A DNA stretch of 64,000 bases. It comes from Leishmania infantum JPCM5. Its lineage: Eukaryota; Euglenozoa; Kinetoplastea; Trypanosomatida; Trypanosomatidae. The notes under the pieces were generated by a model. It saw only the letters and a program-made list of their open reading frames with translations, ran no database searches and was not told where the DNA came from. The stretch covers positions 537,001 to 601,000 of the forward strand of contig NC_009403.2 of NCBI RefSeq assembly GCF_000002875.2, given 5' to 3'. This document shows positions 23,526-58,917 of the stretch, in pieces. Positions within the stretch are counted from its first letter, which is position 1. Each line of letters starts with the position of its first letter. A program made the translations under genes and the position numbers.

Positions 23526-25536
23526 ATGGAAGAAGACACGTCCGCGGCACCAGGCTTTTCATCTCCCGAGCGTCTCTTCTACGCAGTCGTCACTCTCGGC
23601 TTCCTGCTCCGCTCCTTCTCGATTGCGGCTCTCTTCTTCACCTCGAACATCAACTTCCCACGTGTCGGCGTCGGCGCGTCACATTGACTCTTGGCAGCCC
23701 ACTTCACCATCCGTGCCATCGGCTAGGACGGCTGACAAAACCCGCAGCAGCGCCCCTTTATGCGTGGCGTCCCTAGCCTGGCAATGTCCGCGGCAGTGCT
23801 CGTCGATGCTGCTCGGCTCATACGTTGGGTAACATCCCTGCTGTGTTTCATCACTGCCATTTCACGACCTCTGAGTTCTGTCGCAGCACTCTCGACTCAC
23901 CCTCAGGTGCACGGAGGAGGTGCACCGCCTTTCTGCAGCGCTCTTGGATCCTGCCCGCCTTCTACACGGTTGTGGGCGTCGTCTTCGTCATCTTTGTGCA
24001 CGGCCCGCACTTTTTCCTCCCGCTGCTCATCATCATCGCCAACTACGTCATCTTCTCGCGGCTGCAGCGCTGGTGCCCCTACTGGCTGTTCATGGTCATC
24101 ATGTGGGCCGCGCACGTCACTCTCCTGTACCTCATCGAGATCAACGATGGGTTCGAGCAGACGCCCTGGTTACAGTACTACACTTCGTGTATTCTGTCAC
24201 ACCTGCAAGCCATTCAGGAAGATGCGGAAGCAATTCCTTGGGAGCAGCGTATGCGCTGGTGCGTAGCCTTCCGCATGTCGACGCTGCGCCTCATCGCCTT
24301 CAACTACGACCTGTGGGAGGCCACGCACGCCGCCGCACGCGCGCGCGACCGTGCCAGGGCGAAGCACGACACCGGCTGCGTCGAGTGCGCGCAGCTGCGC
24401 GAGCAGAACGCAGCGTCGGCGGCCGCGCTGCCCGCCGAGGCGTTGCGCTGCTACAAGTACCGCACCGAGTACGCGCGCGACCCCGCCGACTACAACTTCC
24501 TGAACTACGCCGNCTACGTGCTGTTCCCGCCACTGTACCTTGCCGGGCCAATGTCGTCCTTCAACGCGTTCGTGTCGCACATGCGCGTGCCGAGCACGTC
24601 GATGCCGCTGCGCAAGATGGTGAGGTACGCGTTTGGCATCCTCCGCATCTACATCACGGAGTACACGCTGTTGCACTTTGTGCACATCCCGTGCCTCGGC
24701 TCGTACGCCTTCGTGATCCTTCGGATGACGTTGCTGGAGCAGGCGCACTTCCTGTTCTACATGCTGGCCTACCTGTGGCTGAAGTTCAGCTTTATATGGA
24801 AGTCGTCGCGTCTCTTCGCCATGTTCAGCGGCATCGAAGTTCCGGAGGACATGCGGCGCTGCTTCGGCAACACGCTGACGGTGCGGGGCTTCTGGCGCGA
24901 CTGGCACGCCTCCTTCAACCTGTGGATCGTGCGGTACATGTACATCCCGATGGGTGGCCGCAGCCGCGTCGCGCTGTCGGTGCTGCCCATCTTCCTGTTC
25001 ATTGCGGTGTGGCACGACCCGGCGCTGCACCTTGTCAAGTGGGCGGTGTGCATTGCCGCGATGTTCGTGGCGGAGGTGGCGGTGAGCGGGTGCTTTGGGT
25101 GGGCCGCTGCGGCGTTCCGGCGCGAGATGGCCGCCGCGGCACCGCATTCCACGAGAGGGGTGAGGATCAACAGTCAATACTCTTGGCGTATTTCTCTCCT
25201 TGCCTCGAAGACGTACTTTTGGGGCCGCCACGTCAGCCGGCACAGCCGAGCGGCAATGCGACGTCATCTGTGCTACGGTGGCTGCTTCTCGAGTATCTTG
25301 GGGGTCATGAGAGCGAATATGATGGGGTAGCCGTGCCGCACGTGCAGGCCGCCTCCAGGGAGAAGCGGGCAGCCAAGGCGCTCTTCTTCAAGGTCCTAAA
25401 AGAAGCAGGTGCATGGTTGCACATTATCTTGGCAGTCATCGTGTGCACGGCGGCCTGCAGTAGCGTGTGTACGCGGGATGTGAAGGCGAGGGGAATGGGT
25501 GCACCGCCCCATGGAGATCAACTGAAGCAGCTGTAG
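23526..25536 (+). pseudogene. mosaic GUP1-like MBOAT pseudogene (cluster copy 1)
   Basis: ATG at 23526 opens MEEDTSAAPGFSSPERLFY followed by a membrane-segment-like stretch, then stops at 23685. From about 23886 to 25143 the DNA becomes essentially identical to the array copies (MBOAT core with FWRDWHASFNLW and AVWHDPALHL), but in a different frame from the N-terminal part. After 25143 sequence identity ends abruptly. A GUP-like tail with SREKRAAKALFFKVLKEAGA and a final hydrophobic helix continues in a third frame to the stop at 25534-25536. So a diverged paralogue has received the conserved core by gene conversion or unequal exchange and is now unreadable as one protein. It carries the P-type cassette (24164-24242). 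One ambiguous base (n) lies at 24513. The core alone stays open as 23825-25330. Confidence 0.75.
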
Positions 25537-27807: not shown

Positions 27808-30330
27808 ATGCATTCACCAATGGAGCACACCCCAACCTCGGCCAGCGGAGGTGCTGGCCGCTTTGTATCGACCTCGCCGGTGGCCCTTTCCGCAGGCAGT
27901 AGTGTGCATGCAGCACCACGGCAGCCACTCACCAGCCGCGCCGGCTCGCTCACCGAGGGCGGACTGAGCAAACCGTTGGGCAGCATTCAGGTACTCGTGT
28001 CCGAACGGGTCTCATTACCCGCCTCGCTCTCATGCGCTGCTTTGGGGTCTCTCCAGACCTCCAGTGCTGCCGAAGAAGCTTTTGTGAGCTGCTCATCGCT
28101 CCCGGCGGTGGCGGCGAAGAGTCCTTCCGCGCAGCGCTCACCTCCCTGGAAGTGCGGTCGCCTGTACTTCGTGAGCCCCACCACGGCGCTGGACGTTGGG
28201 GCCGCTGATTACAACACCGTTTACCCTCGGTGCTGCTCTCTCGAGTATCTCGCCGGGCTTGCTGTTGCCGCCTACATAATTTTGTACGGCTTCGCAGCGA
28301 TTCGAGACTTCTGCGACCGCCACGCGAAATACTACTGGATAAAACTCGTCTACCCAACTCCACTGTTCCTGCGGCTTGGCACCAATGGCTACGACAACTT
28401 GACCGATAAGCAGTGGACGGGGTTCTGCGGACAATATCCGAAGCTCCTGGGGGTGGCGCTTCTCCTTGGCGCGTGGTCAGCTCTGTGTCGAGACTCGAGG
28501 GCTTCGTCGCCTCCGTCATCTTCGTCCTCTCCGCTGTCCGCCTTTACGACAGGAAAGCAACGCGCCGATGTCGGAGACCGACGTCCTCCGGGTACTCCTC
28601 TAGCCTCCGTTTACCAACTCTGCTCCCACGCCGCCCTCACGCTCGCAGAGCGGGTCATCCTTTACCGCTCATCGTGTATTCCTGCCTTCTACACGGTTGT
28701 GGGCGTCGTCTTCGTCATCTTTGTGCACGGCCCGCACTTTTTCCTCCCGCTGCTCATCATCATCGCCAACTACGTCATCTTCTCGCGGCTGCAGCGCTGG
28801 TGCCCCTACTGGCTGTTCATGGTCATCATGTGGGCCGCGCACGTCACTCTCCTGTACCTCATCGAGATCAACGATGGGTTCGAGCAGACGTACTGGCTGC
28901 AGTACTTCGTACCCACTTCCGAGAAGGTTGCTTGGGCTGTGCTGGCCGAGGTCCGGATACCTCTCTGGAAGCAGCGTATGCGCTGGTGCGTAGCCTTCCG
29001 CATGTCGACGCTGCGCCTCATCGCCTTCAACTACGACCTGTGGGAGGCCACGCACGCCGCCGCACGCGCGCGCGACCGTGCCAGGGCGAAGCACGACACC
29101 GGCTGCGTCGAGTGCGCGCAGCTGCGCGAGCAGAACGCAGCGTCGGCGGCCGCGCTGCCCGCCGAGGCGTTGCGCTGCTACAAGTACCGCACCGAGTACG
29201 CGCGCGACCCCGCCGACTACAACTTCCTGAACTACGCCGCCTACGTGCTGTTCCCGCCACTGTACCTTGCCGGGCCAATGTCGTCCTTCAACGCGTTCGT
29301 GTCGCACATGCGCGTGCCGAGCACGTCGATGCCGCTGCGCAAGATGGTGAGGTACGCGTTTGGCATCCTCCGCATCTACATCACGGAGTACACGCTGTTG
29401 CACTTTGTGCACATCCCGTGCCTCGGCTCGTACGCCTTCGTGATCCTTCGGATGACGTTGCTGGAGCAGGCGCACTTCCTGTTCTACATGCTGGCCTACC
29501 TGTGGCTGAAGTTCAGCTTTATATGGAAGTCGTCGCGTCTCTTCGCCATGTTCAGCGGCATCGAAGTTCCGGAGGACATGCGGCGCTGCTTCGGCAACAC
29601 GCTGACGGTGCGGGGCTTCTGGCGCGACTGGCACGCCTCCTTCAACCTGTGGATCGTGCGGTACATGTACATCCCGATGGGTGGCCGCAGCCGCGTCGCG
29701 CTGTCGGTGCTGCCCATCTTCCTGTTCATTGCGGTGTGGCACGACCCGGCGCTGCACCTTGTCAAGTGGGCGGTGTGCATTGCCGCGATGTTCGTGGCGG
29801 AGGTGGCGGTGAGCGGGTGCTTTGGGTGGGCCGCTGCGGCGTTCCGGCGCGAGATGGCCGCCGCGGCACCGACGGGCGCAGTAAGTGATGCTGCGCTGGA
29901 GAACGGTCGCCCCACGAACTGCGCGCCGCGCCGCAGTCTGCTGGCACGGCTGGCGAGGCTCTCTGCGCGTCGCTTGAGCCCGCGCACGCGAGCTTGGCTG
30001 CACCGCCAAATCCGCGTTGTAGGCGGGATGTCAACTGTCTTCGCGCTTATTGTGGCAAACCTTATCGGTTTCTCGATGCAAAACAGCTCAGCTACAATCG
30101 CGAAGATTGGCACTACCTTGGAGCCCACGGATGCAGAGGACATTATCGCAAGATCATTCTCGCAGTTGACGCCGTGGTTTGCTACTGGTCTTCTCGTCTC
30201 TCTGTACACCCTGTCATCGCTAGCCGTCATTGACCGGGACATGCAAGCGCACATGATGTCATGGTTACGGCAGCAGTATAAGCTGAATAAGAGAACCAGC
30301 GGGGCAACTCCTGTCGAAGGGAGGACCTGA
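27808..30330 (+). CDS. GUP1: GUP1-like MBOAT O-acyltransferase (glycerol uptake protein), diverged cluster copy 2
   Basis: The protein has 840 residues, uninterrupted. The start ATG gives MHSPMEHTPTSASGG; Met5 is an alternative. A disordered N-tail of about 115 residues leads to YFVSPTTALDVGAADYNTVY and a polytopic membrane protein. The MBOAT signature FWRDWHASFNLWIVRYMYIP has its His near 609, and the second conserved His is in IAVWHDP (near 645). Yeast Gup1 and T. brucei Gup1 of this type add fatty acids to lyso-GPI anchors in the ER; the glycerol uptake name is historical. Residues of the N-terminal third and the last 120 residues differ strongly from the other copies, while 28684-29983 is essentially identical to them. 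That pattern is best explained by gene conversion of the core. It carries the Y-type cassette (28891-28969). A SIDER-containing spacer follows. Confidence 0.88.
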   Translation: MHSPMEHTPTSASGGAGRFVSTSPVALSAGSSVHAAPRQPLTSRAGSLTEGGLSKPLGSIQVLVSERVSLPASLSCAALGSLQTSSAAEEAFVSCSSLPAVAAKSPSAQRSPPWKCGRLYFVSPTTALDVGAADYNTVYPRCCSLEYLAGLAVAAYIILYGFAAIRDFCDRHAKYYWIKLVYPTPLFLRLGTNGYDNLTDKQWTGFCGQYPKLLGVALLLGAWSALCRDSRASSPPSSSSSPLSAFTTGKQRADVGDRRPPGTPLASVYQLCSHAALTLAERVILYRSSCIPAFYTVVGVVFVIFVHGPHFFLPLLIIIANYVIFSRLQRWCPYWLFMVIMWAAHVTLLYLIEINDGFEQTYWLQYFVPTSEKVAWAVLAEVRIPLWKQRMRWCVAFRMSTLRLIAFNYDLWEATHAAARARDRARAKHDTGCVECAQLREQNAASAAALPAEALRCYKYRTEYARDPADYNFLNYAAYVLFPPLYLAGPMSSFNAFVSHMRVPSTSMPLRKMVRYAFGILRIYITEYTLLHFVHIPCLGSYAFVILRMTLLEQAHFLFYMLAYLWLKFSFIWKSSRLFAMFSGIEVPEDMRRCFGNTLTVRGFWRDWHASFNLWIVRYMYIPMGGRSRVALSVLPIFLFIAVWHDPALHLVKWAVCIAAMFVAEVAVSGCFGWAAAAFRREMAAAAPTGAVSDAALENGRPTNCAPRRSLLARLARLSARRLSPRTRAWLHRQIRVVGGMSTVFALIVANLIGFSMQNSSATIAKIGTTLEPTDAEDIIARSFSQLTPWFATGLLVSLYTLSSLAVIDRDMQAHMMSWLRQQYKLNKRTSGATPVEGRT

Positions 30331-32773: not shown

Positions 32774-34772
32774 ATGGCCACGCTACCAGGTCTCAGTGAA
32801 CATCTCCGTTTACTTCCCCTATCACTCACCCGCCGCATCAGACACAACCACAGCAGCAGCCAAAAAAAAGACACACAGCCCATTTCGCCCGTGAACATGC
32901 TTCCCCAGGCCCTCCAGCCGCTAGTGCCACCTCCACTTCGTGAACCCCACCACGGCGCTGGACATTGGGGCCGCCGATTACAGCACCGTTTACCCTCGGC
33001 TGTGTTCCATCGAGTATCTCGTGACCGCCGCAACGTGTCTGGGAACGATGCTTTATGGGTTTGCCGTGCTCCAGTCGTTCTGCTACAAGAATTTCTTTTC
33101 GTACCAGTGGGACACCGTCGATCCGAACCCCTTCTTTGAACGCATGGGCTCCAAGGGCTACGACGATAGCGTAGACGATCAATGGGTCGGGTTCATCACT
33201 CATTACAAGCGTTTTCTTGGTCTGGCCCTGCTGCTGGCGGGCTTTTCCGGGCTGTATCGAGCGCTGCTCTCTTACTCAACGTCATCTGCATCCCCCGTCC
33301 CCTCTGACAACACGGCCTGCTCATCACCCTCGGCGAGCAGCGAGTGCTCAGGGTCGCTGGACGGCCATGTAAAGGTGTGGATGCCACCGAGGTGGTTGGA
33401 TAAGCTACGCTCACGCGCGCGCACTCTCGGCTCACCCTCAGGTGCACGGAGGAGGTGCACCGCCTTTCTGCAGCGCTCTTGGATCCTGCCCGCCTTCTAC
33501 ACGGTTGTGGGCGTCGTCTTCGTCATCTTTGTGCACGGCCCGCACTTTTTCCTCCCGCTGCTCATCATCATCGCCAACTACGTCATCTTCTCGCGGCTGC
33601 AGCGCTGGTGCCCCTACTGGCTGTTCATGGTCATCATGTGGGCCGCGCACGTCACTCTCCTGTACCTCATCGAGATCAACGATGGGTTCGAGCAGACGTA
33701 CTGGCTGCAGTACTTCGTACCCACTTCCGAGAAGGTTGCTTGGGCTGTGCTGGCCGAGGTCCGGATACCTCTCTGGAAGCAGCGTATGCGCTGGTGCGTA
33801 GCCTTCCGCATGTCGACGCTGCGCCTCATCGCCTTCAACTACGACCTGTGGGAGGCCACGCACGCCGCCGCACGCGCGCGCGACCGTGCCAGGGCGAAGC
33901 ACGACACCGGCTGCGTCGAGTGCGCGCAGCTGCGCGAGCAGAACGCAGCGTCGGCGGCCGCGCTGCCCGCCGAGGCGTTGCGCTGCTACAAGTACCGCAC
34001 CGAGTACGCGCGCGACCCCGCCGACTACAACTTCCTGAACTACGCCGCCTACGTGCTGTTCCCGCCACTGTACCTTGCCGGGCCAATGTCGTCCTTCAAC
34101 GCGTTCGTGTCGCACATGCGCGTGCCGAGCACGTCGATGCCGCTGCGCAAGATGGTGAGGTACGCGTTTGGCATCCTCCGCATCTACATCACGGAGTACA
34201 CGCTGTTGCACTTTGTGCACATCCCGTGCCTCGGCTCGTACGCCTTCGTGATCCTTCGGATGACGTTGCTGGAGCAGGCGCACTTCCTGTTCTACATGCT
34301 GGCCTACCTGTGGCTGAAGTTCAGCTTTATATGGAAGTCGTCGCGTCTCTTCGCCATGTTCAGCGGCATCGAAGTTCCGGAGGACATGCGGCGCTGCTTC
34401 GGCAACACGCTGACGGTGCGGGGCTTCTGGCGCGACTGGCACGCCTCCTTCAACCTGTGGATCGTGCGGTACATGTACATCCCGATGGGTGGCCGCAGCC
34501 GCGTCGCGCTGTCGGTGCTGCCCATCTTCCTGTTCATTGCGGTGTGGCACGACCCGGCGCTGCACCTTGTCAAGTGGGCGGTGTGCATTGCCGCGATGTT
34601 CGTGGCGGAGGTGGCGGTGAGCGGGTGCTTTGGGTGGGCCGCTGCGGCGTTCCGGCGCGAGATGGCCGCCGCGGCACCGACGGGCGCAGTAAGTGATGCT
34701 GCGCTGGAGAACGGTCGCCCCACGAACTGCGCGCCGCGCCGCAGTCTGCTGGCACGGCTGGCGAGCTCTCTG
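32774..34772 (+). CDS. GUP1-like MBOAT O-acyltransferase, cluster copy 3 (5' frameshift, 3' end lost in gap)
   Basis: ATG at 32774 begins MATLPGLSEHLRLLPLSLTR, a leader different from that of copies 5 and 6. After about 50 codons the frame is wrong for the MBOAT body. One surplus base around 32921-32926 separates it from the body frame CHLHFVNPTTALDIG, and a TAG lies in the body frame at 32922. From there the body is open and matches copies 5 and 6, with FWRDWHASFNLW and AVWHDP present. It differs in a short block, HYKRFLG instead of HYNELVC (33208-33222), and in DDSVDD for DDSIDD. It carries the Y-type cassette (33699-33777). The 3' end runs into n at 34773 with one base missing shortly before it, so the last roughly 110 residues are not represented. 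The damage could be sequencing error or real decay. Confidence 0.7.
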
Positions 34773-34773: not shown

Positions 34774-36920
34774 TGGACATTGGGGCCGCCCATTACCAGC
34801 CCCGTTTACCCTCGGCTGTGTTCCATCGAGAATCTCGTGACCGCCGCAACCGTGTCTGGGAACGATGCTTTATGGGTTTGCCGTGCTCCAGTCGTTCTGC
34901 TACAAGAATTTCTTTTCGTACCAGTGGGACACCGTCGATCCGAACCCCTTCTTTGAACGCATGGGCTCCAAGGGCTACGACGATAGCATAGACGATCAAT
35001 GGGTCGGGTTCATCACTCATTACAACGAATTGGTCTGCCTGGCCCTGCTGCTGGCGGGCTTTTCCGGGCTGTATCGAGCGCTGCTCTCTTACTCAACGTC
35101 ATCTGCATCCCCCGTCCCCTCTGACAACACGGCCTGCTCATCACCCTCGGCGAGCAGCGAGTGCTCAGGGTCGCTGGACGGCCATGTAAAGGTGTGGATG
35201 CCACCGAGGTGGTTGGATAAGCTACGCTCACGCGCGCGCACTCTCGGCTCACCCTCAGGTGCACGGAGGAGGTGCACCGCCTTTCTGCAGCGCTCTTGGA
35301 TCCTGCCCGCCTTCTACACGGTTGTGGGCGTCGTCTTCGTCATCTTTGTGCACGGCCCGCACTTTTTCCTCCCGCTGCTCATCATCATCGCCAACTACGT
35401 CATCTTCTCGCGGCTGCAGCGCTGGTGCCCCTACTGGCTGTTCATGGTCATCATGTGGGCCGCGCACGTCACTCTCCTGTACCTCATCGAGATCAACGAT
35501 GGGTTCGAGCAGACGCCCTGGTTACAGTACTACACTTCGTGTATTCTGTCACACCTGCAAGCCATTCAGGAAGATGCGGAAGCAATTCCTTGGGAGCAGC
35601 GTATGCGCTGGTGCGTAGCCTTCCGCATGTCGACGCTGCGCCTCATCGCCTTCAACTACGACCTGTGGGAGGCCACGCACGCCGCCGCACGCGCGCGCGA
35701 CCGTGCCAGGGCGAAGCACGACACCGGCTGCGTCGAGTGCGCGCAGCTGCGCGAGCAGAACGCAGCGTCGGCGGCCGCGCTGCCCGCCGAGGCGTTGCGC
35801 TGCTACAAGTACCGCACCGAGTACGCGCGCGACCCCGCCGACTACAACTTCCTGAACTACGCCGCCTACGTGCTGTTCCCGCCACTGTACCTTGCCGGGC
35901 CAATGTCGTCCTTCAACGCGTTCGTGTCGCACATGCGCGTGCCGAGCACGTCGATGCCGCTGCGCAAGATGGTGAGGTACGCGTTTGGCATCCTCCGCAT
36001 CTACATCACGGAGTACACGCTGTTGCACTTTGTGCACATCCCGTGCCTCGGCTCGTACGCCTTCGTGATCCTTCGGATGACGTTGCTGGAGCAGGCGCAC
36101 TTCCTGTTCTACATGCTGGCCTACCTGTGGCTGAAGTTCAGCTTTATATGGAAGTCGTCGCGTCTCTTCGCCATGTTCAGCGGCATCGAAGTTCCGGAGG
36201 ACATGCGGCGCTGCTTCGGCAACACGCTGACGGTGCGGGGCTTCTGGCGCGACTGGCACGCCTCCTTCAACCTGTGGATCGTGCGGTACATGTACATCCC
36301 GATGGGTGGCCGCAGCCGCGTCGCGCTGTCGGTGCTGCCCATCTTCCTGTTCATTGCGGTGTGGCACGACCCGGCGCTGCACCTTGTCAAGTGGGCGGTG
36401 TGCATTGCCGCGATGTTCGTGGCGGAGGTGGCGGTGAGCGGGTGCTTTGGGGTGGGCCGCTGCGGCGTTCCGGCGCGAGATGGCCGCCGCGGCACCGACG
36501 GGCGCAGTAAGTGATGCTGCGCTGGAGAACGGTCGCCCCACGAACTGCGCGCCGCGCCGCAGTCTGCTGGCACGGCTGGCGAGGCTCTCTGCGCGTCGCT
36601 TGAGCCCGCTCGCGCAATCGTGGGTATACCGCCAATTTCGAGTGATAGCGGGCATGACCACAGTGCTCGGGCTGATCATTGCGAACTTGGTGGGTTTCTC
36701 GATGCAAAATGCGGTGGCGACTGTGGAGAAGCACGGCCTACCGTCGTCGGGGACCGATGCAGACAATGTGATCAAGAAGGCGTTTCACGGTCTCACGCCT
36801 CTCTTTACCCTAGGCCTGATTGCCTTCATGTACTCTATGTCCGCCTTGGCGGCGATGGATCGCGACATGGCCCGCCAGCAGGCATCGTACTTGAAGCTGC
36901 TCTATAGATTGAAGCAGTAG
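34774..36920 (+). CDS. GUP1-like MBOAT O-acyltransferase, cluster copy 4 (5' end lost in gap, one frameshift)
   Basis: The copy starts inside the gene after the gap. Two extra bases within 90 bases of the gap disturb the frame; from 34865 it reads TMLYGFAVLQSFCYKNFF as in copies 5 and 6. It stays open through the MBOAT core and the FWRDWHASFNLW and AVWHDP motifs. At about 36450 it has one extra G (GGGG instead of GGG), which shifts the frame so that the correct C-terminus, ending YLKLLYRLKQ, lies in another frame to the stop at 36918-36920. All three indels are typical draft-assembly errors, so the real gene may be intact. It carries the P-type cassette (35516-35594), like copy 6. Confidence 0.7.
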
Positions 36921-37946: not shown

Positions 37947-40280
37947 ATGGAGCCAGAGAAAGCGTTCAACGAAGAGCCGGAGGCGACTGTGCAGGACCCC
38001 TCGCTGGTGTCGCCCTCGTCCCTCCTCCAAGGCTCCGCGCTGCCGTTGCTATCGCCATCCACTTCTGTCTCGCAACCACCCCGCACTGCGCCTTCGTGGA
38101 GCTGCCGCCTCCACTTCGTGAGCCCCACCACGGCGCTGGACATTGGGGCCGCCGATTACAGCACCGTTTACCCTCGGCTGTGTTCCATCGAGTATCTCGT
38201 GACCGCCGCAACGTGTCTGGGAACGATGCTTTATGGGTTTGCCGTGCTCCAGTCGTTCTGCTACAAGAATTTCTTTTCGTACCAGTGGGACACCGTCGAT
38301 CCGAACCCCTTCTTTGAACGCATGGGCTCCAAGGGCTACGACGATAGCATAGACGATCAATGGGTCGGGTTCATCACTCATTACAACGAATTGGTCTGCC
38401 TGGCCCTGCTGCTGGCGGGCTTTTCCGGGCTGTATCGAGCGCTGCTCTCTTACTCAACGTCATCTGCATCCCCCGTCCCCTCTGACAACACGGCCTGCTC
38501 ATCACCCTCGGCGAGCAGCGAGTGCTCAGGGTCGCTGGACGGCCATGTAAAGGTGTGGATGCCACCGAGGTGGTTGGATAAGCTACGCTCACGCGCGCGC
38601 ACTCTCGGCTCACCCTCAGGTGCACGGAGGAGGTGCACCGCCTTTCTGCAGCGCTCTTGGATCCTGCCCGCCTTCTACACGGTTGTGGGCGTCGTCTTCG
38701 TCATCTTTGTGCACGGCCCGCACTTTTTCCTCCCGCTGCTCATCATCATCGCCAACTACGTCATCTTCTCGCGGCTGCAGCGCTGGTGCCCCTACTGGCT
38801 GTTCATGGTCATCATGTGGGCCGCGCACGTCACTCTCCTGTACCTCATCGAGATCAACGATGGGTTCGAGCAGACGTACTGGCTGCAGTACTTCGTACCC
38901 ACTTCCGAGAAGGTTGCTTGGGCTGTGCTGGCCGAGGTCCGGATACCTCTCTGGAAGCAGCGTATGCGCTGGTGCGTAGCCTTCCGCATGTCGACGCTGC
39001 GCCTCATCGCCTTCAACTACGACCTGTGGGAGGCCACGCACGCCGCCGCACGCGCGCGCGACCGTGCCAGGGCGAAGCACGACACCGGCTGCGTCGAGTG
39101 CGCGCAGCTGCGCGAGCAGAACGCAGCGTCGGCGGCCGCGCTGCCCGCCGAGGCGTTGCGCTGCTACAAGTACCGCACCGAGTACGCGCGCGACCCCGCC
39201 GACTACAACTTCCTGAACTACGCCGCCTACGTGCTGTTCCCGCCACTGTACCTTGCCGGGCCAATGTCGTCCTTCAACGCGTTCGTGTCGCACATGCGCG
39301 TGCCGAGCACGTCGATGCCGCTGCGCAAGATGGTGAGGTACGCGTTTGGCATCCTCCGCATCTACATCACGGAGTACACGCTGTTGCACTTTGTGCACAT
39401 CCCGTGCCTCGGCTCGTACGCCTTCGTGATCCTTCGGATGACGTTGCTGGAGCAGGCGCACTTCCTGTTCTACATGCTGGCCTACCTGTGGCTGAAGTTC
39501 AGCTTTATATGGAAGTCGTCGCGTCTCTTCGCCATGTTCAGCGGCATCGAAGTTCCGGAGGACATGCGGCGCTGCTTCGGCAACACGCTGACGGTGCGGG
39601 GCTTCTGGCGCGACTGGCACGCCTCCTTCAACCTGTGGATCGTGCGGTACATGTACATCCCGATGGGTGGCCGCAGCCGCGTCGCGCTGTCGGTGCTGCC
39701 CATCTTCCTGTTCATTGCGGTGTGGCACGACCCGGCGCTGCACCTTGTCAAGTGGGCGGTGTGCATTGCCGCGATGTTCGTGGCGGAGGTGGCGGTGAGC
39801 GGGTGCTTTGGGTGGGCCGCTGCGGCGTTCCGGCGCGAGATGGCCGCCGCGGCACCGACGGGCGCAGTAAGTGATGCTGCGCTGGAGAACGGTCGCCCCA
39901 CGAACTGCGCGCCGCGCCGCAGTCTGCTGGCACGGCTGGCGAGGCTCTCTGCGCGTCGCTTGAGCCCGCTCGCGCAATCGTGGGTATACCGCCAATTTCG
40001 AGTGATAGCGGGCATGACCACAGTGCTCGGGCTGATCATTGCGAACTTGGTGGGTTTCTCGATGCAAAATGCGGTGGCGACTGTGGAGAAGCACGGCCTA
40101 CCGTCGTCGGGGACCGATGCAGACAATGTGATCAAGAAGGCGTTTCACGGTCTCACGCCTCTCTTTACCCTAGGCCTGATTGCCTTCATGTACTCTATGT
40201 CCGCCTTGGCGGCGATGGATCGCGACATGGCCCGCCAGCAGGCATCGTACTTGAAGCTGCTCTATAGATTGAAGCAGTAG
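37947..40280 (+). CDS. GUP1: GUP1-like MBOAT O-acyltransferase (glycerol uptake protein), intact array copy 5
   Basis: The protein has 777 residues. The frame is open further upstream but has no ATG before 37947 (MEPEKAFNEEPEATVQD). A disordered Ser/Pro-rich head of about 55 residues precedes LHFVSPTTALDIGAADYSTV. Multiple hydrophobic segments follow (for example YLVTAATCLGTMLYGFAVLQ and FFLPLLIIIANYVIF). The MBOAT signature FWRDWHASFNLWIVRYMYIP has its His near 558, and the second invariant His lies in IAVWHDP near 594, matching yeast Gup1. By family it acylates GPI-anchor or related lyso-lipids at the ER membrane; substrate and acyl chain are not readable here. It carries the Y-type cassette, residues about 311-337 (38877-38955). 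It differs from copy 6 only in that cassette, as far as I can see. Confidence 0.93.
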   Translation: MEPEKAFNEEPEATVQDPSLVSPSSLLQGSALPLLSPSTSVSQPPRTAPSWSCRLHFVSPTTALDIGAADYSTVYPRLCSIEYLVTAATCLGTMLYGFAVLQSFCYKNFFSYQWDTVDPNPFFERMGSKGYDDSIDDQWVGFITHYNELVCLALLLAGFSGLYRALLSYSTSSASPVPSDNTACSSPSASSECSGSLDGHVKVWMPPRWLDKLRSRARTLGSPSGARRRCTAFLQRSWILPAFYTVVGVVFVIFVHGPHFFLPLLIIIANYVIFSRLQRWCPYWLFMVIMWAAHVTLLYLIEINDGFEQTYWLQYFVPTSEKVAWAVLAEVRIPLWKQRMRWCVAFRMSTLRLIAFNYDLWEATHAAARARDRARAKHDTGCVECAQLREQNAASAAALPAEALRCYKYRTEYARDPADYNFLNYAAYVLFPPLYLAGPMSSFNAFVSHMRVPSTSMPLRKMVRYAFGILRIYITEYTLLHFVHIPCLGSYAFVILRMTLLEQAHFLFYMLAYLWLKFSFIWKSSRLFAMFSGIEVPEDMRRCFGNTLTVRGFWRDWHASFNLWIVRYMYIPMGGRSRVALSVLPIFLFIAVWHDPALHLVKWAVCIAAMFVAEVAVSGCFGWAAAAFRREMAAAAPTGAVSDAALENGRPTNCAPRRSLLARLARLSARRLSPLAQSWVYRQFRVIAGMTTVLGLIIANLVGFSMQNAVATVEKHGLPSSGTDADNVIKKAFHGLTPLFTLGLIAFMYSMSALAAMDRDMARQQASYLKLLYRLKQ

Positions 40281-41306
40281 CGGCCCCGTCACGATGGCGT
40301 CACGAAGGAGTAGGTGGCACGAGTCTGCAGTGTGGATGAGCCTGTGCATCCGACTGGCGCGCGGCCCCATCTCCCTTTTGCGCCAGCCATCTATGGTTTC
40401 TTCCCCTTTCTGCGAAAGGCGTCGATGATGTCGTTTCGCAGGCTTTTTTTTGGGTCTCTGGCCTTCTCTTCCCCTCGTTCTCCAAGGAAGGTGTGTACGT
40501 GCGTGGGTAGGTGTGGGTGTGGGCGCATACCGCGCGTAGATGCATCGCCCATGGCCTCCCCCCCCCCCTCGCACTTCACCGGCCCGCCCATACGTCGACA
40601 GAAGCGCTGCCAACCGCTCTTTCGCGCGTGCCCCTGAGAGGCCCCGTCTCGCCGACTCTCCCACTCCAAGACGCTCTCCCCCTCCCCCTTTTCTTGCCTC
40701 TCACCGTTTGCAATCTTCGCTCTCCCCCACTCCCACTCGCCTCTCCGGGACTCTGCGCCTCTCAGACAACCATCTCCAATCAGAGGACCACCAACGGAAA
40801 CAGTAAAAGCACAACCGTGTGAGTCAAGCACACTATAAAGCCGTGCTCATTCTTGTGTGTGTGTGTGTGTCTAGTCACCACACCTCATTTTATAGCGCTC
40901 TTGTTTGTAAATTCCTTGCGCTGTCCCTCTCCCCGTCTCATCCCTACCCATCCCCCCTCCGTATTCCTCAAGCAACCCCCTTTCACATTGCTGCTGTGGT
41001 CTATCCGCGGTGTCGCTGGCACGTGGCGTTGCGCGCGACGCTGTGTGTACGCTGGTGCGTTGGCTAGCAGGTCACCCCGTAGGCATATATATGTGAATAC
41101 CAAAAGACGCCTTGAAAGCAACCACAGGCACCCAGGTACCCGCAACCACGCTCGAAGCGCGCCCTCCACCTTTACCCAGCTCATGGCTAGTCGTTACTCG
41201 TCATATTCCTGCCCCGAGTGATTTGCGATCTGCGCCGTTCTCTGTCCTGTTTCCCACCCCTCCCCTCACCGCATCGCTCTCTCTTGCGCGCTTCTCGGCA
41301 GCGACG
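40281..41306. other. array spacer between GUP copies 5 and 6
   Basis: Exact repeat of 36921-37946, including the GT microsatellite, the C-run and the candidate splice tract at 40921-40972. No gene is supportable. Confidence 0.6.
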
Positions 41307-43640
41307 ATGGAGCCAGAGAAAGCGTTCAACGAAGAGCCGGAGGCGACTGTGCAGGACCCCTCGCTGGTGTCGCCCTCGTCCCTCCTCCAAGGCTCCGCGC
41401 TGCCGTTGCTATCGCCATCCACTTCTGTCTCGCAACCACCCCGCACTGCGCCTTCGTGGAGCTGCCGCCTCCACTTCGTGAGCCCCACCACGGCGCTGGA
41501 CATTGGGGCCGCCGATTACAGCACCGTTTACCCTCGGCTGTGTTCCATCGAGTATCTCGTGACCGCCGCAACGTGTCTGGGAACGATGCTTTATGGGTTT
41601 GCCGTGCTCCAGTCGTTCTGCTACAAGAATTTCTTTTCGTACCAGTGGGACACCGTCGATCCGAACCCCTTCTTTGAACGCATGGGCTCCAAGGGCTACG
41701 ACGATAGCATAGACGATCAATGGGTCGGGTTCATCACTCATTACAACGAATTGGTCTGCCTGGCCCTGCTGCTGGCGGGCTTTTCCGGGCTGTATCGAGC
41801 GCTGCTCTCTTACTCAACGTCATCTGCATCCCCCGTCCCCTCTGACAACACGGCCTGCTCATCACCCTCGGCGAGCAGCGAGTGCTCAGGGTCGCTGGAC
41901 GGCCATGTAAAGGTGTGGATGCCACCGAGGTGGTTGGATAAGCTACGCTCACGCGCGCGCACTCTCGGCTCACCCTCAGGTGCACGGAGGAGGTGCACCG
42001 CCTTTCTGCAGCGCTCTTGGATCCTGCCCGCCTTCTACACGGTTGTGGGCGTCGTCTTCGTCATCTTTGTGCACGGCCCGCACTTTTTCCTCCCGCTGCT
42101 CATCATCATCGCCAACTACGTCATCTTCTCGCGGCTGCAGCGCTGGTGCCCCTACTGGCTGTTCATGGTCATCATGTGGGCCGCGCACGTCACTCTCCTG
42201 TACCTCATCGAGATCAACGATGGGTTCGAGCAGACGCCCTGGTTACAGTACTACACTTCGTGTATTCTGTCACACCTGCAAGCCATTCAGGAAGATGCGG
42301 AAGCAATTCCTTGGGAGCAGCGTATGCGCTGGTGCGTAGCCTTCCGCATGTCGACGCTGCGCCTCATCGCCTTCAACTACGACCTGTGGGAGGCCACGCA
42401 CGCCGCCGCACGCGCGCGCGACCGTGCCAGGGCGAAGCACGACACCGGCTGCGTCGAGTGCGCGCAGCTGCGCGAGCAGAACGCAGCGTCGGCGGCCGCG
42501 CTGCCCGCCGAGGCGTTGCGCTGCTACAAGTACCGCACCGAGTACGCGCGCGACCCCGCCGACTACAACTTCCTGAACTACGCCGCCTACGTGCTGTTCC
42601 CGCCACTGTACCTTGCCGGGCCAATGTCGTCCTTCAACGCGTTCGTGTCGCACATGCGCGTGCCGAGCACGTCGATGCCGCTGCGCAAGATGGTGAGGTA
42701 CGCGTTTGGCATCCTCCGCATCTACATCACGGAGTACACGCTGTTGCACTTTGTGCACATCCCGTGCCTCGGCTCGTACGCCTTCGTGATCCTTCGGATG
42801 ACGTTGCTGGAGCAGGCGCACTTCCTGTTCTACATGCTGGCCTACCTGTGGCTGAAGTTCAGCTTTATATGGAAGTCGTCGCGTCTCTTCGCCATGTTCA
42901 GCGGCATCGAAGTTCCGGAGGACATGCGGCGCTGCTTCGGCAACACGCTGACGGTGCGGGGCTTCTGGCGCGACTGGCACGCCTCCTTCAACCTGTGGAT
43001 CGTGCGGTACATGTACATCCCGATGGGTGGCCGCAGCCGCGTCGCGCTGTCGGTGCTGCCCATCTTCCTGTTCATTGCGGTGTGGCACGACCCGGCGCTG
43101 CACCTTGTCAAGTGGGCGGTGTGCATTGCCGCGATGTTCGTGGCGGAGGTGGCGGTGAGCGGGTGCTTTGGGTGGGCCGCTGCGGCGTTCCGGCGCGAGA
43201 TGGCCGCCGCGGCACCGACGGGCGCAGTAAGTGATGCTGCGCTGGAGAACGGTCGCCCCACGAACTGCGCGCCGCGCCGCAGTCTGCTGGCACGGCTGGC
43301 GAGGCTCTCTGCGCGTCGCTTGAGCCCGCTCGCGCAATCGTGGGTATACCGCCAATTTCGAGTGATAGCGGGCATGACCACAGTGCTCGGGCTGATCATT
43401 GCGAACTTGGTGGGTTTCTCGATGCAAAATGCGGTGGCGACTGTGGAGAAGCACGGCCTACCGTCGTCGGGGACCGATGCAGACAATGTGATCAAGAAGG
43501 CGTTTCACGGTCTCACGCCTCTCTTTACCCTAGGCCTGATTGCCTTCATGTACTCTATGTCCGCCTTGGCGGCGATGGATCGCGACATGGCCCGCCAGCA
43601 GGCATCGTACTTGAAGCTGCTCTATAGATTGAAGCAGTAG
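41307..43640 (+). CDS. GUP1: GUP1-like MBOAT O-acyltransferase (glycerol uptake protein), intact array copy 6
   Basis: The protein has 777 residues and is identical to copy 5 except for residues about 311-337. There it has the P-type cassette, PWLQYYTSCILSHLQAIQ followed by EDAEAIPWEQR (42237-42315), in place of the Y type, YWLQYFVPTSEKVAWAV followed by LAEVRIPLWKQR. The two versions have the same length, keep W-L-Q-Y at the start and W-x-Q-R at the end, and share almost nothing between. The cassette follows the AHVTLLYLIEINDGFEQ membrane segment and precedes MRWCVAFRMSTLRLIAFN. MBOAT His residues are present as in copy 5. Downstream, unit identity continues to about 44065 and then stops, so this is the last array unit. 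Confidence 0.93.
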   Translation: MEPEKAFNEEPEATVQDPSLVSPSSLLQGSALPLLSPSTSVSQPPRTAPSWSCRLHFVSPTTALDIGAADYSTVYPRLCSIEYLVTAATCLGTMLYGFAVLQSFCYKNFFSYQWDTVDPNPFFERMGSKGYDDSIDDQWVGFITHYNELVCLALLLAGFSGLYRALLSYSTSSASPVPSDNTACSSPSASSECSGSLDGHVKVWMPPRWLDKLRSRARTLGSPSGARRRCTAFLQRSWILPAFYTVVGVVFVIFVHGPHFFLPLLIIIANYVIFSRLQRWCPYWLFMVIMWAAHVTLLYLIEINDGFEQTPWLQYYTSCILSHLQAIQEDAEAIPWEQRMRWCVAFRMSTLRLIAFNYDLWEATHAAARARDRARAKHDTGCVECAQLREQNAASAAALPAEALRCYKYRTEYARDPADYNFLNYAAYVLFPPLYLAGPMSSFNAFVSHMRVPSTSMPLRKMVRYAFGILRIYITEYTLLHFVHIPCLGSYAFVILRMTLLEQAHFLFYMLAYLWLKFSFIWKSSRLFAMFSGIEVPEDMRRCFGNTLTVRGFWRDWHASFNLWIVRYMYIPMGGRSRVALSVLPIFLFIAVWHDPALHLVKWAVCIAAMFVAEVAVSGCFGWAAAAFRREMAAAAPTGAVSDAALENGRPTNCAPRRSLLARLARLSARRLSPLAQSWVYRQFRVIAGMTTVLGLIIANLVGFSMQNAVATVEKHGLPSSGTDADNVIKKAFHGLTPLFTLGLIAFMYSMSALAAMDRDMARQQASYLKLLYRLKQ

Positions 43641-46557
43641 CGGCCCCGTCACGATGGCGTCACGAAGGAGTAGGTGGCACGAGTCTGCAGTGTGGATGAG
43701 CCTGTGCATCCGACTGGCGCGCGGCCCCATCTCCCTTTTGCGCCAGCCATCTATGGTTTCTTCCCCTTTCTGCGAAAGGCGTCGATGATGTCGTTTCGCA
43801 GGCTTTTTTTTGGGTCTCTGGCCTTCTCTTCCCCTCGTTCTCCAAGGAAGGTGTGTACGTGCGTGGGTAGGTGTGGGTGTGGGCGCATACCGCGCGTAGA
43901 TGCATCGCCCATGGCCTCCCCCCCCCCCTCGCACTTCACCGGCCCGCCCATACGTCGACAGAAGCGCTGCCAACCGCTCTTTCGCGCGTGCCCCTGAGAG
44001 GCCCCGTCTCGCCGACTCTCCCACTCCAAGACGCTCTCCCCCTCCCCCTTCTCTTGCCTCTCACCACTTGCCATATTTGGTGTTGCCAAGCGCATGTATC
44101 TTCTTTGTATTCGTTTTTTGTTTGAATTAATCGGCTTGGGGGTGTTGCTTGGTTGCGTCAACGAGGACTGTGGACAAACTGGCTCGTCTTCGGCACCGTG
44201 CTCACGCAGGCTTTGATCCCTGTGTGTGTGTGTGTGTGTGTGTGTGAGGATGCGCATATACGTCATTATATAGCGTTTTTTTTAAGGATTTTATGGAGAG
44301 TGTGAAAGTTGAGAAGGCATGTGAAATATCCTTTTTTTTTTGGCAGTGCACCCGTGTATTTGAGCGTGCGTCCGTGCAACTCCCACATCCGCGAAGGGCT
44401 GTCCCGCCCATGCGAGGACTTAGCGAAGCCTGAGGGAAAAGCTTGTCCGGAAAGGATCAAGAGAAAGAATCAGTGGCATTCATAGATAAAAGAGGCGCCG
44501 GAAGTTAAGGGGGAGAGACGGAATGCGGGCTATGCTACGGAAGGGTTTTTATTTGATTTTGCCTTTACTGTTACGCTGAGTTGATTCGGTGGGGATAGGG
44601 CAGATGGTGAAGGTGGTATTCTCTCTCTTTTCTTTTTTTGTTTTCGGTCATCATATCTTTTCTGTGTACGGAGGGAGGGGCTTTGGCTTATACTGTGGAC
44701 TTGTGCGGAGTTGTGTCTGCCGATGCGTATGTGTACATGTATATCAGTGTTTATGTGCCTATCTGTATGTAATAGTGGGTGTGGGTGTGTTGGTCGTCTC
44801 CTATAATCGATTTGGTTTAGTCATCCCCTCCCCCTCCCTCTCCCTCCTCTCTGTACGGTTGTTGTTTGCTTTGTCTGTCTTCGACTCGGAGTGGCAGCGG
44901 CATTTATTTTGTTGGTAGAGGGATGCTCTGCGTCTTCCGGGTTTGGGGTGCGGAACATGCAACGGTACTACCTCCTGTGGTGATGAAGGAACGTATTTTT
45001 TTTTATTTATTCTATGTCGATGTGTGTATGTATGTGTGTGTGTGTGTTTGTTTTAGCGCACCGCTACGTCTTCGGCGGCGGTGCTGTTGTCATTTTGCGT
45101 GTTGTTCGTGGCGCCGTAGATTCTTTTACCGAAATACCATCAGCGCAGCAACAGCAAACCCTCTCACCGCTCGCCTCCTACCCGACCACCATCACCACCA
45201 TCATCACTTTCTCTTCTCCATAAGTATTGTTATAGATTCGTTTTTGTTTAAACTGCTTCTTTTCGAAAGTCTCCTATCATCACGTTCCCATCATCGAGTC
45301 CCTAAGCCACTGCCAGAAGAGCCATGCCCCCCACCACCACTCCACGCCCCCTCCGCCTCATTTGAGCCTTGTACCTCTTTTCTCTGTCCCCGCCTTACCG
45401 CCCACCGCGGAGAATGAGGAAGGCTCTGGTTCTCTCTCCGTGCTCCTTCTTGGCTGCACCACCTCTTATCACCCACTTTCTTTGCGGCGGCGGCGTCAAC
45501 TGGAAAAGCAAAATGTGTTGGATGAGAAGATAAGCATACACGTACACACATACTGGCACGTATGTGTAGGAAAACAAAAGGAAACGGGCTTATCTGCGCA
45601 CTGGATCGACTAGATCACGGTGCAGCGCATGTAGTGGCCATGATGCGCCCCTGCAGGCCAGTTTAGCTCCGTTGCACGCTACGCAGGCGCGACAGTGGCA
45701 GCGTGCGCGGTCACCTCATAAGAAGGGGACTGACGGGATTCAGCAGTTGTTTTCTTCTGCTATGAGCAAAGGTCATCTATCTTGTGTGCAGGCCGGAGCA
45801 CTAGGTTTTTTTTTCTGGTATGCGGCGTCTTGCCATGCTGCACACCGCTACATCCTCGATTGCCCGCCTGTCTTTTCTCCCATCCCCCCCCCCAACCATC
45901 CGTTTTTCTTCGCGAATGATTGCCCTATGCGCGAGTCTCTGCCGTGCACTTTAACCGTTCTCTCTCTGCGGACGATATACGCGCATCCCATTCACAAGCG
46001 CACATGCAGACGCGCACACGCAGTGGCACAGCTACTATCAGCTGGCATCTTGCACACCCAAGGCACTACGAAGCACCTGTGCCGTATCGCTCGACAAAAA
46101 AAAAATTGCGCGGCCTTTTCACCGCCTACCGCTCACAGCGCGTTCGTGTTTTTGCCGTATGCTATGTGGTGAAGCGTTGTCGCTTTAACTGAGCGCAGCC
46201 GGTCGGATCGTCGCTGCTGCTGGTGTCGTGGCCGTGCCTCTCCTCTGTACTAGATCTCGTTCGTTTTTCTTTTTCTTTCTTGCGTCTCCCTCCCCCCTTT
46301 CCCTCTCGCATATAGCGTGCCCTAGAGAACAGGAACGCCTTGGTGTTGCATGTGCGAGTTTGGCTTCGGTACCAATATACGGCATCTCTCACACCTGATC
46401 AGCACACATCACACGCAAGCACACACACACGCCTGCGCGTCAAGACAAGAAGGGCCGTGGCTTATAGATTGACGGAAACTCCACACACACACGCACACAC
46501 ACACACCTGCAAAACGTTCACGTCTGTGTGTGTGTGTGTGTGTGCGTAGAAGCACTC
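43641..46557. other. spacer after the array, unique from about 44065
   Basis: The first 425 bases belong to the repeat unit. The remainder is AT-richer than most of the window, with a (GT)n at 44221-44247, T-runs (44277-44284, 44331-44341), poly-T (44997-45005), CA repeats (46485-46505) and a GT repeat (46523-46545) just before the next gene. No gene is supportable; open frames at 45672-46172 and 44866-45417 show no domain. Confidence 0.6.
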
Positions 46558-48825
46558 ATGGAAGCTGAGCCCCTCAGAATGGTGCCGAACGCCCGAAGCG
46601 CGTCCCTGTTGCACTGGGGAATGGCAGCGGCGGCCACCTCCTCTTCCACCAGTCTTGCATCGCTGCCTAGTAAAAGTGACGGCGTATGTGGCGGGGGCGG
46701 AGGCAAGAACGACGACACGGGCACTGTGCTACCGCTAAACCGCGCCACGATGGCCGATGCTGAAGCGTCGGTCAACCGCGCCTACCTCTCCCGCACCTCA
46801 CTGGAGTACATTCTCTGCGTCGCCTTTGTCGTCGTTGGCATCTTCTACTCTTGCGTCTACAGGATCGCCTGCATTGGCCGTGAGCATCACGAAGAGCTGA
46901 AGGAGAATCTTAAGCCACCATGGGCACTATACCGCTGGCTCGGCAGCAAAGGTGTGGACGTAACGGATCTGCAGTGCTACTACTTTGTGGTGGCGATGCC
47001 CCCATCCATACCGTACATGATCGGCTTCCTGCTCTTGTCACGACGACTGCGACGCCATGCCGCATCGAAGACGGCGACAGCTGTAAAAGAATCTACCATC
47101 GCTGCGGCTGGCGACGGCAAGGAGCGCAGCGGCTCGATGGCAAGCATTCACCACCCAGAGCACGTCATCGGCGACAGCAGTGTTGGTAGAGGCAGCGTCA
47201 GCCCTACGCTCCTGATTCGCAAAGACGTGTCGACCCTCCAATTCCTTCACATTATCGCTGGCATGTTCATTGCTCTGTGCCTCTGCGGGCCGGGGTTTCT
47301 CTTCGGAGTGGTAATGATGTTGCTCAATTTCTATCTGATCGCGCCTCTTTACAAGAGAGCGTCCTTTCGGGTATCCATGACGGTGATGTGGGTGATGCAC
47401 GTGTTGGTCCTCTTCTTGAACTACCACGCTGGCGGGTACCAGTTTGCCTGGTTTGGGCTCAGCTTCCTCGATAACCTGTGGTCGCCATTGATCCAGTGGA
47501 CCACCCAGTATAACATGTCGGTGCTGCGCATGATCTCCTTTAACAGTGATCTCTGGGAGTCAGTAAGCTGTGGCGAGGAGCGGCGGCAGAAGTCGCTGGC
47601 GAAGCACGCACGCACATGCATTGCCTGTGCTCAGATACGCGACCAGCACCGTCACGCCGTCACCTCTCTCCCGCCGGAGGCACTCTCGTGTTACAAGTGC
47701 CGCACAGAATGCTCACGGCACGTGGAAGAGTTCACTCTCAGCGCTTACCTCGGCTACATATTCTACCTGCCTCTTTTCATGGCGGGGCCGGTGTCGTCCT
47801 TCAACGCGTACGTGTCCTACCAGCATTACTCGGCACGGAGCATTGAGGGCAAGGCTATCTGGCGGTACGGATTTCGCTTATTGTGCCACGCTATCTTGCT
47901 AGCAACGTTGATGCACTACGTGCCTATCATGGCCATTCTGCTGACACCCGCTCCGTCAGCCAGTGGAGCGGCTGAAGCAGTGCCTGCCGCTGGGGCGATC
48001 GCAGCGGAAGGGGCTGCGCTGGCGCGCAGTAGCGGTGCTATGGCGGTCACCACGAGTAGCTCGCCAGCGGGCAACGCACTGCAGAATATGGTTAGCACAA
48101 CCACTGCAACCACAACACCCACAGCAGCCGTTGTCACCCTCTCGGTGCTGGACCAGATGGGGGTTACGGAAAAGGCGTCCCTGTTTGTACTGGCACTGGC
48201 CTTCCTGTGGGCTAAGTTCGACGTTGTGTGGCGCTTCTTCCGCTTCTTCGCGCTGCTAGACGGCTTCGACCCGCCGGAGGACATGCCGCGCTGCTTCGCC
48301 AACACTGTGAATATCCAAAGCTTCTGGCGCGACTGGCACGCCTCCTTCAACCTGTGGATCGTGCGGTACATGTACATCCCGATGGGCGGCAGTCGCACCA
48401 AGTCTCTCTCCATATTTCCCATCTTCTTCTTCATTGCCATCTGGCATGACATCGAGCTGCGTCTGATCTTCTGGGCCACAATCATGTGCACCGCATTAAT
48501 CCCTGAGATCGCGGTCACTCTCTTCTTCTCCTCCGAGAACCCGCTGGTGATGCGAATCAAGCGCTCGCCGCTCATGTGGAGGTACCTACGCGTACTCGGG
48601 ACGCAACTGGCGCTGATGGAGTTGACTGTAGCAAACCTTGTCGGCTTCTCCGTTGGTACAACCGGCGCGGCGTGGGCCGCTCAGCACATGTTTCGCGAGA
48701 TGTCCTTCACGTTCAAGATCCTCGCGCCGTGCTTTTACCTCTGCGCGGCGATCATCTCCATTCAAGACAGCGACCAGAAAGCGTATGAGCAGCAGCAACT
48801 CAAACTAAAGTACGATCTCCAGTAA
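46558..48825 (+). CDS. GUP1: GUP1-like MBOAT O-acyltransferase, diverged single-copy paralogue (copy 7)
   Basis: The protein has 755 residues. The upstream frame is a GT microsatellite without ATG; the first ATG at 46558 gives MEAEPLRMVPNARSAS. The body starts with TSLEYILCVAFVVVGIFYS and is collinear with the array copies. SVLRMISFNSDLWES matches STLRLIAFNYDLWEA, and CYKCRTECSRHVEEFTL matches CYKYRTEYARDPADYNFL. FWRDWHASFNLWIVRYMYIP is identical (His near 594), followed by IAIWHDIELRL (His near 630). Between two membrane segments, residues about 464-535, it has an Ala/Ser/Thr-rich insert (TSSSPAGNALQNMVSTTTAT and neighbours) absent from the array copies. The cassette region has a third, unrelated version. 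It has clearly escaped the homogenisation of the array. Whether this or the array is the true functional counterpart of T. brucei Gup1 is open. Confidence 0.9.
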   Translation: MEAEPLRMVPNARSASLLHWGMAAAATSSSTSLASLPSKSDGVCGGGGGKNDDTGTVLPLNRATMADAEASVNRAYLSRTSLEYILCVAFVVVGIFYSCVYRIACIGREHHEELKENLKPPWALYRWLGSKGVDVTDLQCYYFVVAMPPSIPYMIGFLLLSRRLRRHAASKTATAVKESTIAAAGDGKERSGSMASIHHPEHVIGDSSVGRGSVSPTLLIRKDVSTLQFLHIIAGMFIALCLCGPGFLFGVVMMLLNFYLIAPLYKRASFRVSMTVMWVMHVLVLFLNYHAGGYQFAWFGLSFLDNLWSPLIQWTTQYNMSVLRMISFNSDLWESVSCGEERRQKSLAKHARTCIACAQIRDQHRHAVTSLPPEALSCYKCRTECSRHVEEFTLSAYLGYIFYLPLFMAGPVSSFNAYVSYQHYSARSIEGKAIWRYGFRLLCHAILLATLMHYVPIMAILLTPAPSASGAAEAVPAAGAIAAEGAALARSSGAMAVTTSSSPAGNALQNMVSTTTATTTPTAAVVTLSVLDQMGVTEKASLFVLALAFLWAKFDVVWRFFRFFALLDGFDPPEDMPRCFANTVNIQSFWRDWHASFNLWIVRYMYIPMGGSRTKSLSIFPIFFFIAIWHDIELRLIFWATIMCTALIPEIAVTLFFSSENPLVMRIKRSPLMWRYLRVLGTQLALMELTVANLVGFSVGTTGAAWAAQHMFREMSFTFKILAPCFYLCAAIISIQDSDQKAYEQQQLKLKYDLQ

Positions 48826-49165
48826 CAGGAAGTCGTGAGGCGCGTACATGATACGACTCGCCTGGACGCCCTTCTCCCCCTCCCCCCTCTCGTCCTCTCT
48901 TCAGCTTCAGCCTCCGCCTCCGCGGCAAGGGCAACATCGCTTCCTAATCCATATTTCCCTTCGTCCCCCCCCCGTTGCTTGCTTTACGTGTGTGTGCTTC
49001 CTTCGCATCTCCCGCCATCTCCCTCCTTATGGCGTCGGCTTTAGCACTTTTCCGTGTTCTTCCTCTTTGTGTGTCCATCGTATTATTTCCATTTATATCG
49101 TTTTCGTGATCCCTGGTGACGGAGTGAGGGTGGGGGAGGGGGAGGGACATCTTGCCTTCATATAT

Positions 49166-49625
49166 CAAGGCTCAGTACCCTCCCTCCGCGGGAAAGCGAA
49201 GCAGCACCCTTCCTACTCCCCCTCTCTCTCCTATCCCTGCCAGCTGCAGAGCCGCTACTGCTATGTCGGCGCTTAGGCCGTGGGTGGGAGCTGCATTGGA
49301 GCCGCCGGCGCCTGTGAACACATTTGTGCCATCCATGTGATGGGCGAAGTGTCCGCGTGACTCCAACCCATCTCACCCGGACCCTCACACTGCCCACTGG
49401 TGTGGGGGAGCTTGAGCCCCTCTGAGGGGGCCGCACCGCGTGGCGACCACCACAATGGAAGCGGCTGTGAGGCGATCTGCGGAGCAGAGTGTGGGTAGAG
49501 TGTGAGGCAGGCGCTGTGCTCTGATAACTGGGTCGGCATATTGCTCTGACGTGTGTCTCCTGCTGCCTCGTACCACGCGGAAGGGGCCTGTGACAGGGGC
49601 CGGGTGGTGCGGAGTGGGGTTCACC
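49166..49625 (+). mobile_element. SIDER-like degenerate retroposon (long form, copy B1)
   Basis: About 460 bases beginning near CTCAGTACCCTCCCTCCGCG and ending near GTGCGGAGTGG are almost identical to 58928-59373. It shares several blocks with the short forms at 25748 and 32080, which look internally deleted by about 180 bases. It lies in the 3' flank of GUP copy 7. About 55 bases upstream is CCTGGTGACGGAG, also present upstream of copy B2. The SIDER2 class is likely. Confidence 0.68.
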
Positions 49626-58795: not shown

Positions 58796-58917
58796 CAAGG
58801 AGTAGTCCCGGAGCACACCCAAGCATGCACGTGTGTATGTATGCGTGTACGCATTCTCTTTTTCTACGTCTCTTTGCGCGATTCCTGGTGACGGAGGTAC
58901 ATCGCACACGGGGTGGT

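Follow-up and report, generated by a model that had tools for sequence, protein, structure and literature searches.

How can tandem genes that have become identical over about a kilobase keep two unrelated versions of one short segment? The question is raised by an array of six homogenized GUP1/HHAT-type gene copies, plus a diverged seventh copy, in the chromosome 19 contig (C19) of Leishmania infantum JPCM5. We analyzed a stretch of 64,000 nucleotides of this contig (C19:537001-601000), called the window below.

The array and its two-version block

An initial annotation made from the letters alone had singled out copies 5 and 6 as identical except for one 79-bp block, and its coordinates proved to be right. 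When each position x was compared with x + 3360 from 36450 to 40690, all were identical except those of 38877-38955, where 48 of 79 bases differed. The two block versions, called Y and P, had also been said to recur in the other copies, and we found exact 79-mers at six of six expected positions, three Y and three P (Table 1).

Table 1 Features of the array in window coordinates (numbers with a sign are positions in the ungapped register around the block)
Feature	Position	Strand	Description	Basis or detail
Copy 1	23896..25144	+	Only the core is shared; on its 5' and 3' sides the frames are broken in the assembly	-268 to +980 identical to copy 5
Copy 2	27808..30330	+	Complete ORF whose N and C ends are its own; core shared over 28684-29983	Core from -207 to +1092
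Copy 3	32925..34772	+	Ends at the N at 34773; probably a contig end	
Copy 4	34774..36920	+	Begins directly after N 34773	End set by homology to the copy 5 stop
Copy 5	37947..40280	+	Predicted 777-aa MBOAT acyltransferase, Y version	Translation; Pfam PF03062, 106.2 bits
Copy 6	41307..43640	+	Predicted 777-aa MBOAT acyltransferase, P version	Translation; Pfam PF03062, 111.6 bits
Copy 7	46528..48825	+	Diverged paralogue outside the homogenized set; start codon uncertain	30% identity to copy 5 in the alignment
P-type block, copy 1	24164..24242	+		Exact 79-mer
Y-type block, copy 2	28891..28969	+		Exact 79-mer
Y-type block, copy 3	33699..33777	+		Exact 79-mer
P-type block, copy 4	35516..35594	+		Exact 79-mer
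Y-type block, copy 5	38877..38955	+	Residues 311-337	GC3 0.73
P-type block, copy 6	42237..42315	+	Residues 311-337	GC3 0.50
Second mini-block	33209..33221	+	Copy 3 KRFLG vs copies 4-6 NELVC	9/13 bases differ
High-GC3 homogenized core	38664..39806	+	Spans residues about 240-620 of copy 5 apart from the block	

Judged by the PF03062 profile, on which copy 7 scored 99.8 bits and all three of copies 5, 6 and 7 exceeded the curated cut-off of 27, the array proteins belong to the MBOAT family. They also have the MBOAT fold. His594 aligned with His379 of HHAT, the catalytic histidine, and was invariant in 20 of 20 alignment rows; identity between an array protein and human HHAT was 16-17%. The genes are thus predicted to encode MBOAT acyltransferases of the GUP1/HHAT type, and GUP1 GPI O-acyltransferase function is putative, by homology. 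The Gup1 proteins of Trypanosoma brucei (TbGup1) and yeast are GPI-remodeling acyltransferases that share the MBOAT family and lipid remodeling of GPI in the ER (PMC8591177, PMC4962981), and a BLAST table gives LmxM.19.1347 as the L. mexicana match to GUP1 (PMC8591177). Leishmania differs in having a multi-copy array with loop variants, whose activity is putative. Human HHAT (7urf, 7mhy and 7q1u) has a protein N terminus as its substrate, whereas the array proteins have a long N-terminal part and loops.

The interiors of the two block versions appear unrelated, as had been proposed, since alignment of Y with P was no better than that of shuffled sequences. For DNA the global score was matched by 53.5% and the local score by 71% of 1000 shuffles, and the protein score was matched by 36% of 2000 shuffles. 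With the reverse complement the scores were matched by 14% and 7% of shuffles (the local score by 7% of 1000). An inversion, a compensated frameshift or a gapped relation of Y and P was considered and none was detectable; the direct comparison scored like shuffled sequence. The frame is kept across both versions, and the block lies directly upstream of a predicted membrane helix; both points agree with the initial annotation.

In ungapped register around the block the six copies were identical from -207 to +935 (~1.1 kb) outside the block, except for one N in copy 1. Copy 1 diverged from the others at -269 and +981 and copy 2 at -208 and +1093; because each departs at its own limits, these two copies have their own ends around the same core. 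The copies within the genome were closer to each other than to those of other species, in that the six cores were identical (an identity that the assembly may exaggerate) and the protein core outside the loop differed by 5.6% from that of L. major. Such within-genome likeness is the mark of concerted evolution by gene conversion, to which we assign the array on these comparisons.

The proposal that homogenization spares one short segment held for the sparing, given the identical flanks and the 48 differences within the block, and was slightly off in the claim that there is only one such segment, as a second mini-block also differs (Table 1). Its two versions (33209-33221 compared with 38387-38399) lie near the second predicted membrane helix. 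KRFLG resembles KTFLA of L. major and NELVC resembles NTLVC of L. panamensis, likenesses that are too short to press.

Several further observations concern single copies and the surrounding DNA. Copy 1 (window 23381-25395) has a perfect core despite its broken gene ends and could act as a conversion donor; it can be aligned to L. donovani gene models only as pieces in different frames. Compared with copy 5, copy 4 carries an additional base near 36449. Dispersed repeat pairs of 97-99% identity are present at 49161-49617 and 58917-59373, at 21152-21297 and 58270-58414, and at 25747-26039 and 32075-32368. Two ORFs with SPFH/Band 7 domains lie near each other (1178-2011 and 4057-5052), and an ORF of the PAP2 family lies at 52958-54874. 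No RNA family reached its gathering threshold in the window.

Third-position GC along the copies

We followed third-position GC (GC3) along the copies. In copy 5, GC3 was 0.74 over residues 1-239, 0.93 at 240-310 and again at 338-620, and 0.75 from residue 660 on, with a drop to the value of Table 1 within the block. In copy 2 the ends gave 0.67 and 0.65 and the core gave 0.90 and 0.93. GC at codon positions 1 and 2 was not raised in the core.

As the codon-usage reference for expected values we pooled 5,389 codons, drawn from copy 7, from the ends of the copy 2 and copy 5 genes and from six more ORFs in the window, which are mechanical ORFs unchecked as genes. Relative to this usage the synonymous-codon GC3 was high on both sides of the block, with 0.924 for the left part of the core (z +4.1) and 0.923 for the right part (z +8.3), whereas Y was as expected (0.708, z 0.04) and P was low (0.480, z -2.3). 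In 100,000 simulations under core codon usage the Y value was reached at a frequency of 0.001 and the P value never. Likewise, when the core was scanned in 348 overlapping windows of 26 codons, none had GC3 as low as Y or P. Synonymous-codon GC3 of copy 7 was 0.711 overall and 0.757 in its homologous core, a value slightly above expectation (z 2.7) but well below 0.92. On its left the high-GC3 stretch begins near residue 240, where the identity of copy 2 with the other copies also begins (about residue 242); on its right it ends near residue 620, which is 18 to 55 residues before identity ends in copies 1 and 2.

In the concept of GC-biased gene conversion a converted tract carries an excess of GC at synonymous sites, and such an excess was found here. 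The pattern looks like the result of GC-biased gene conversion that has long acted on the core and skipped the block, which is its plain reading. The GC3 of the core could come in part from codon selection, since copy 7 too has a slightly raised value in its core. As the step is seen inside single copies, the footprint is independent of the number of real copies. This GC3 footprint is new here and is independent support for the sparing of the segment.

Age of the two versions and paralogues in other species

To compare the two versions we searched a protein collection for relatives; the P version as query gave 16, the Y version also gave 16, and a search for the alignment gave 21, with about 8,000 candidates scored per search. 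The protein collection was clustered at 90% identity, which can conceal a second version from the same species. The P loop is carried by L. donovani P0004 and P0012 and a diverged P loop by L. mexicana P0005, and Y-like loops were found in L. major P0002 and P0018 and in L. tarentolae P0003. At their N and C ends P0004 and P0012 match the window as separate pieces, which lie as far as 2 kb from one another and in several reading frames; we took both as spliced gene models and relied only on their core. Because of the clustering, the missing P in the L. major and L. tarentolae rows is no evidence, and the finding of both versions together in the L. infantum genome only is subject to the same hiding of others.

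Trees were built from 19 of 23 rows for the loop and 17 of 23 for the core (omitted from both were copy 7, L. shawi, copy 2 and P0018, and from the core tree also two Leptomonas pieces). In the loop tree of 28 protein columns, which are few for the number of rows, the window P, the two L. donovani P and the L. mexicana loop grouped at 100/99, whereas in the core tree of 359 columns the rows of Y (copy 5), P (copy 6) and both L. donovani proteins were identical. On this protein-level grouping the P version appears to be older than at least the L. donovani - L. mexicana split, and hence the P class is, by its protein columns, trans-species. L. major P0018 has a C end like that of copy 1 and yet a Y-like loop, whereas copy 1 has P; the version therefore changes at seemingly the same place.

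The same segment is divergent among paralogues of another trypanosomatid. The three Lotmaria passim paralogues differed from each other at 15/29, 14/27 and 15/29 loop positions compared with 5/158, 4/158 and 7/158 in the flanks (258-310 and 338-440), with Fisher p values of 1.2e-10 to 1.5e-9. When the loop excess in Lotmaria was put to a rotation test across the entire core, it was not significant (0.085-0.125), because there is a second divergence hotspot near residues 465-507, where these paralogues differ at 20, 31 and 29 of 43 positions. Residues 465-507 align to a luminal cysteine region of HHAT. The L. braziliensis paralogues had 0/27 differences in the loop and 5/43 at 465-507, a weak counterpart of the second hotspot, and the Leptomonas pair showed no loop excess (p 0.68, on a short flank). 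Thus, the loop is a recurrent and not a universal place of divergence.

Explanations for the spared loop

The reading that we consider likely is that Y and P are two loop alleles that diverged long ago, are too unlike each other to be homogenized and have been moved whole by ordinary conversion. The central catalytic core (residues about 240-620) would evolve in concert through GC-biased gene conversion among the tandem copies, and the loop (residues 311-337, between two membrane helices and luminal by homology) would exist as the old alleles Y and P. These alleles would be too diverged to form a mendable heteroduplex and conversion could not blend them; conversion tracts would either halt at the loop or carry it over whole. 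The flanks would become identical, and the loop would stay in two versions, each pairable with any gene background. Concerted evolution with partial conversion has been described for tandem arrays of trypanosomatids, where copies are homogenized, some are chimaeric and less conserved regions may escape gene conversion (PMC1855330). These features are alike here; a two-version loop inside an otherwise identical core is not described in the available text of that report, and the GC3 footprint and the cross-species comparison are added by the present analysis. In the literature searched, which covered few subscription journals, no description of two loop versions in this array was found.

Selection could keep both loops through different specificities for acceptor or partner while conversion shuffles them, an account compatible with old alleles moved by ordinary conversion and one that we hold as plausible and tentative. 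Between L. infantum and L. mexicana the P loop differs at 12/27 positions compared with 10/156 in the flanking core (p 2.3e-6). The P class has persisted from before L. donovani and L. mexicana separated, even though in that time the P rows of L. infantum and L. mexicana have come to differ by 6.7% in the rest of the core, the same loop has diversified in Lotmaria, and net charge over the 28 loop residues compared is +1 in Y and -4 in P. However, persistence can be neutral if dissimilarity itself blocks conversion. Moreover, the Y loop is slow between L. infantum and L. major (2/27 differences compared with 7/156 in the flanks, p 0.62) and weakly fast relative to L. tarentolae (7/27, p 0.064). 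The diversifying selection that had been suggested for the block is possible, but a Y-lineage loop that changes no faster than its flanks between L. infantum and L. major speaks against a general drive to diversify.

An assembly artefact, in which the tandem copies would really be two alleles or misplaced reads and the making of a consensus would have rendered the flanks identical, must be weighed given the state of the reference. The old JPCM5 reference was built from 5x Sanger sequence, and the glycerol uptake protein locus of LinJ.19 is among the tandem arrays named as having collapsed and gained genes; chromosome 19 has 706,116 bases in the PacBio version (PMC5741766). For this reason the copy number, order and perfect identity of the array are unreliable. 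In addition, C35:844039-861466 repeats C19:554345-571772 (window 17345-34772) over 17.4 kb at 99.97% identity, with five mismatches, none of them more than 29 bases from the left edge. The repeat stops at a 102-base gap, at the base matching the single N of the window (34773) where copies 3 and 4 join. As the old contigs 19 and 35 exceed their PacBio versions by 36 and 49 kb (PMC5741766), the C35 duplicate is probably a misplaced contig. A further Y block is present in a GUP-like fragment of 1.27 kb on the minus strand near the chromosome end (C19:725835-727099), which contains one N and looks misplaced. We took both the C35 duplicate and this fragment as layout errors. These layout errors and N joins, together with the broken frames of copies 1 and 4, are what an artefact would leave, but the P loop in L. 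donovani and L. mexicana records, the Y-like loops in those of L. major and L. tarentolae, the same pattern in Lotmaria and a GC3 step that is present within single copies, and so does not depend on copy number, make an artefact quite unlikely as the source of the two versions.

A dedicated cassette-switching system that swaps the loop from a silent donor store, a form of the cassette swap that the initial annotation had entertained, would suit the sharp edges, the exact recurrence of whole blocks and the retention of a loop by copy 1, a copy broken outside its core, but is very improbable, because ordinary conversion with identical flanks suffices for whole-block transfer and no separate store was seen in the genome search. 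That search, made with each 79-mer in an imperfect assembly, gave four P and six Y places, one P and two Y of them in the C35 duplicate stretch; all ten lie in GUP-like genes or presumed assembly duplicates and none stands apart. Import of the block from elsewhere in the genome likewise had no source, as neither 79-mer had a place outside GUP-like sequence.

The two versions may have an effect on the acceptor substrate. By homology to HHAT the loop would face the ER lumen, and acyl-CoA enters HHAT from the cytosol (PMC8693861); the choice of acyl donor, one of the roles first proposed for the block, thus looks unlikely. In structure models the loop had pLDDT <50, too weak to place it relative to the tunnel. 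The block itself is a real and well-located feature, and any function of its two versions is putative. The fullest version of such a function is a combinatorial acyltransferase array, in which each gene would join its N end and C end to a common catalytic core, kept uniform through GC-biased conversion, and to a luminal recognition loop drawn from a set of at least two ancient ones. The loops, under balancing selection, would direct acylation of different GPI-type acceptors, with a parallel in Lotmaria. We regard this scheme as speculative and, taken whole, unlikely.

The array shows cleanly, in a natural setting, how conversion and divergence act on a single protein, with the core cleared of differences and one loop not, and the composition footprint records this sparing independently of the doubtful copy count. 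The copy number of the array varies among L. donovani isolates (PMC4081786, PMC5777657). If the loops set the choice of acceptor, the array would offer a way to study how the parasite adjusts its GPI-anchored surface. Dips of GC3 inside high-GC3 tandem cores offer a simple scan for spared recognition segments elsewhere and, if the combinatorial scheme were true, the GC3 step would mark recognition segments in other parasite arrays.
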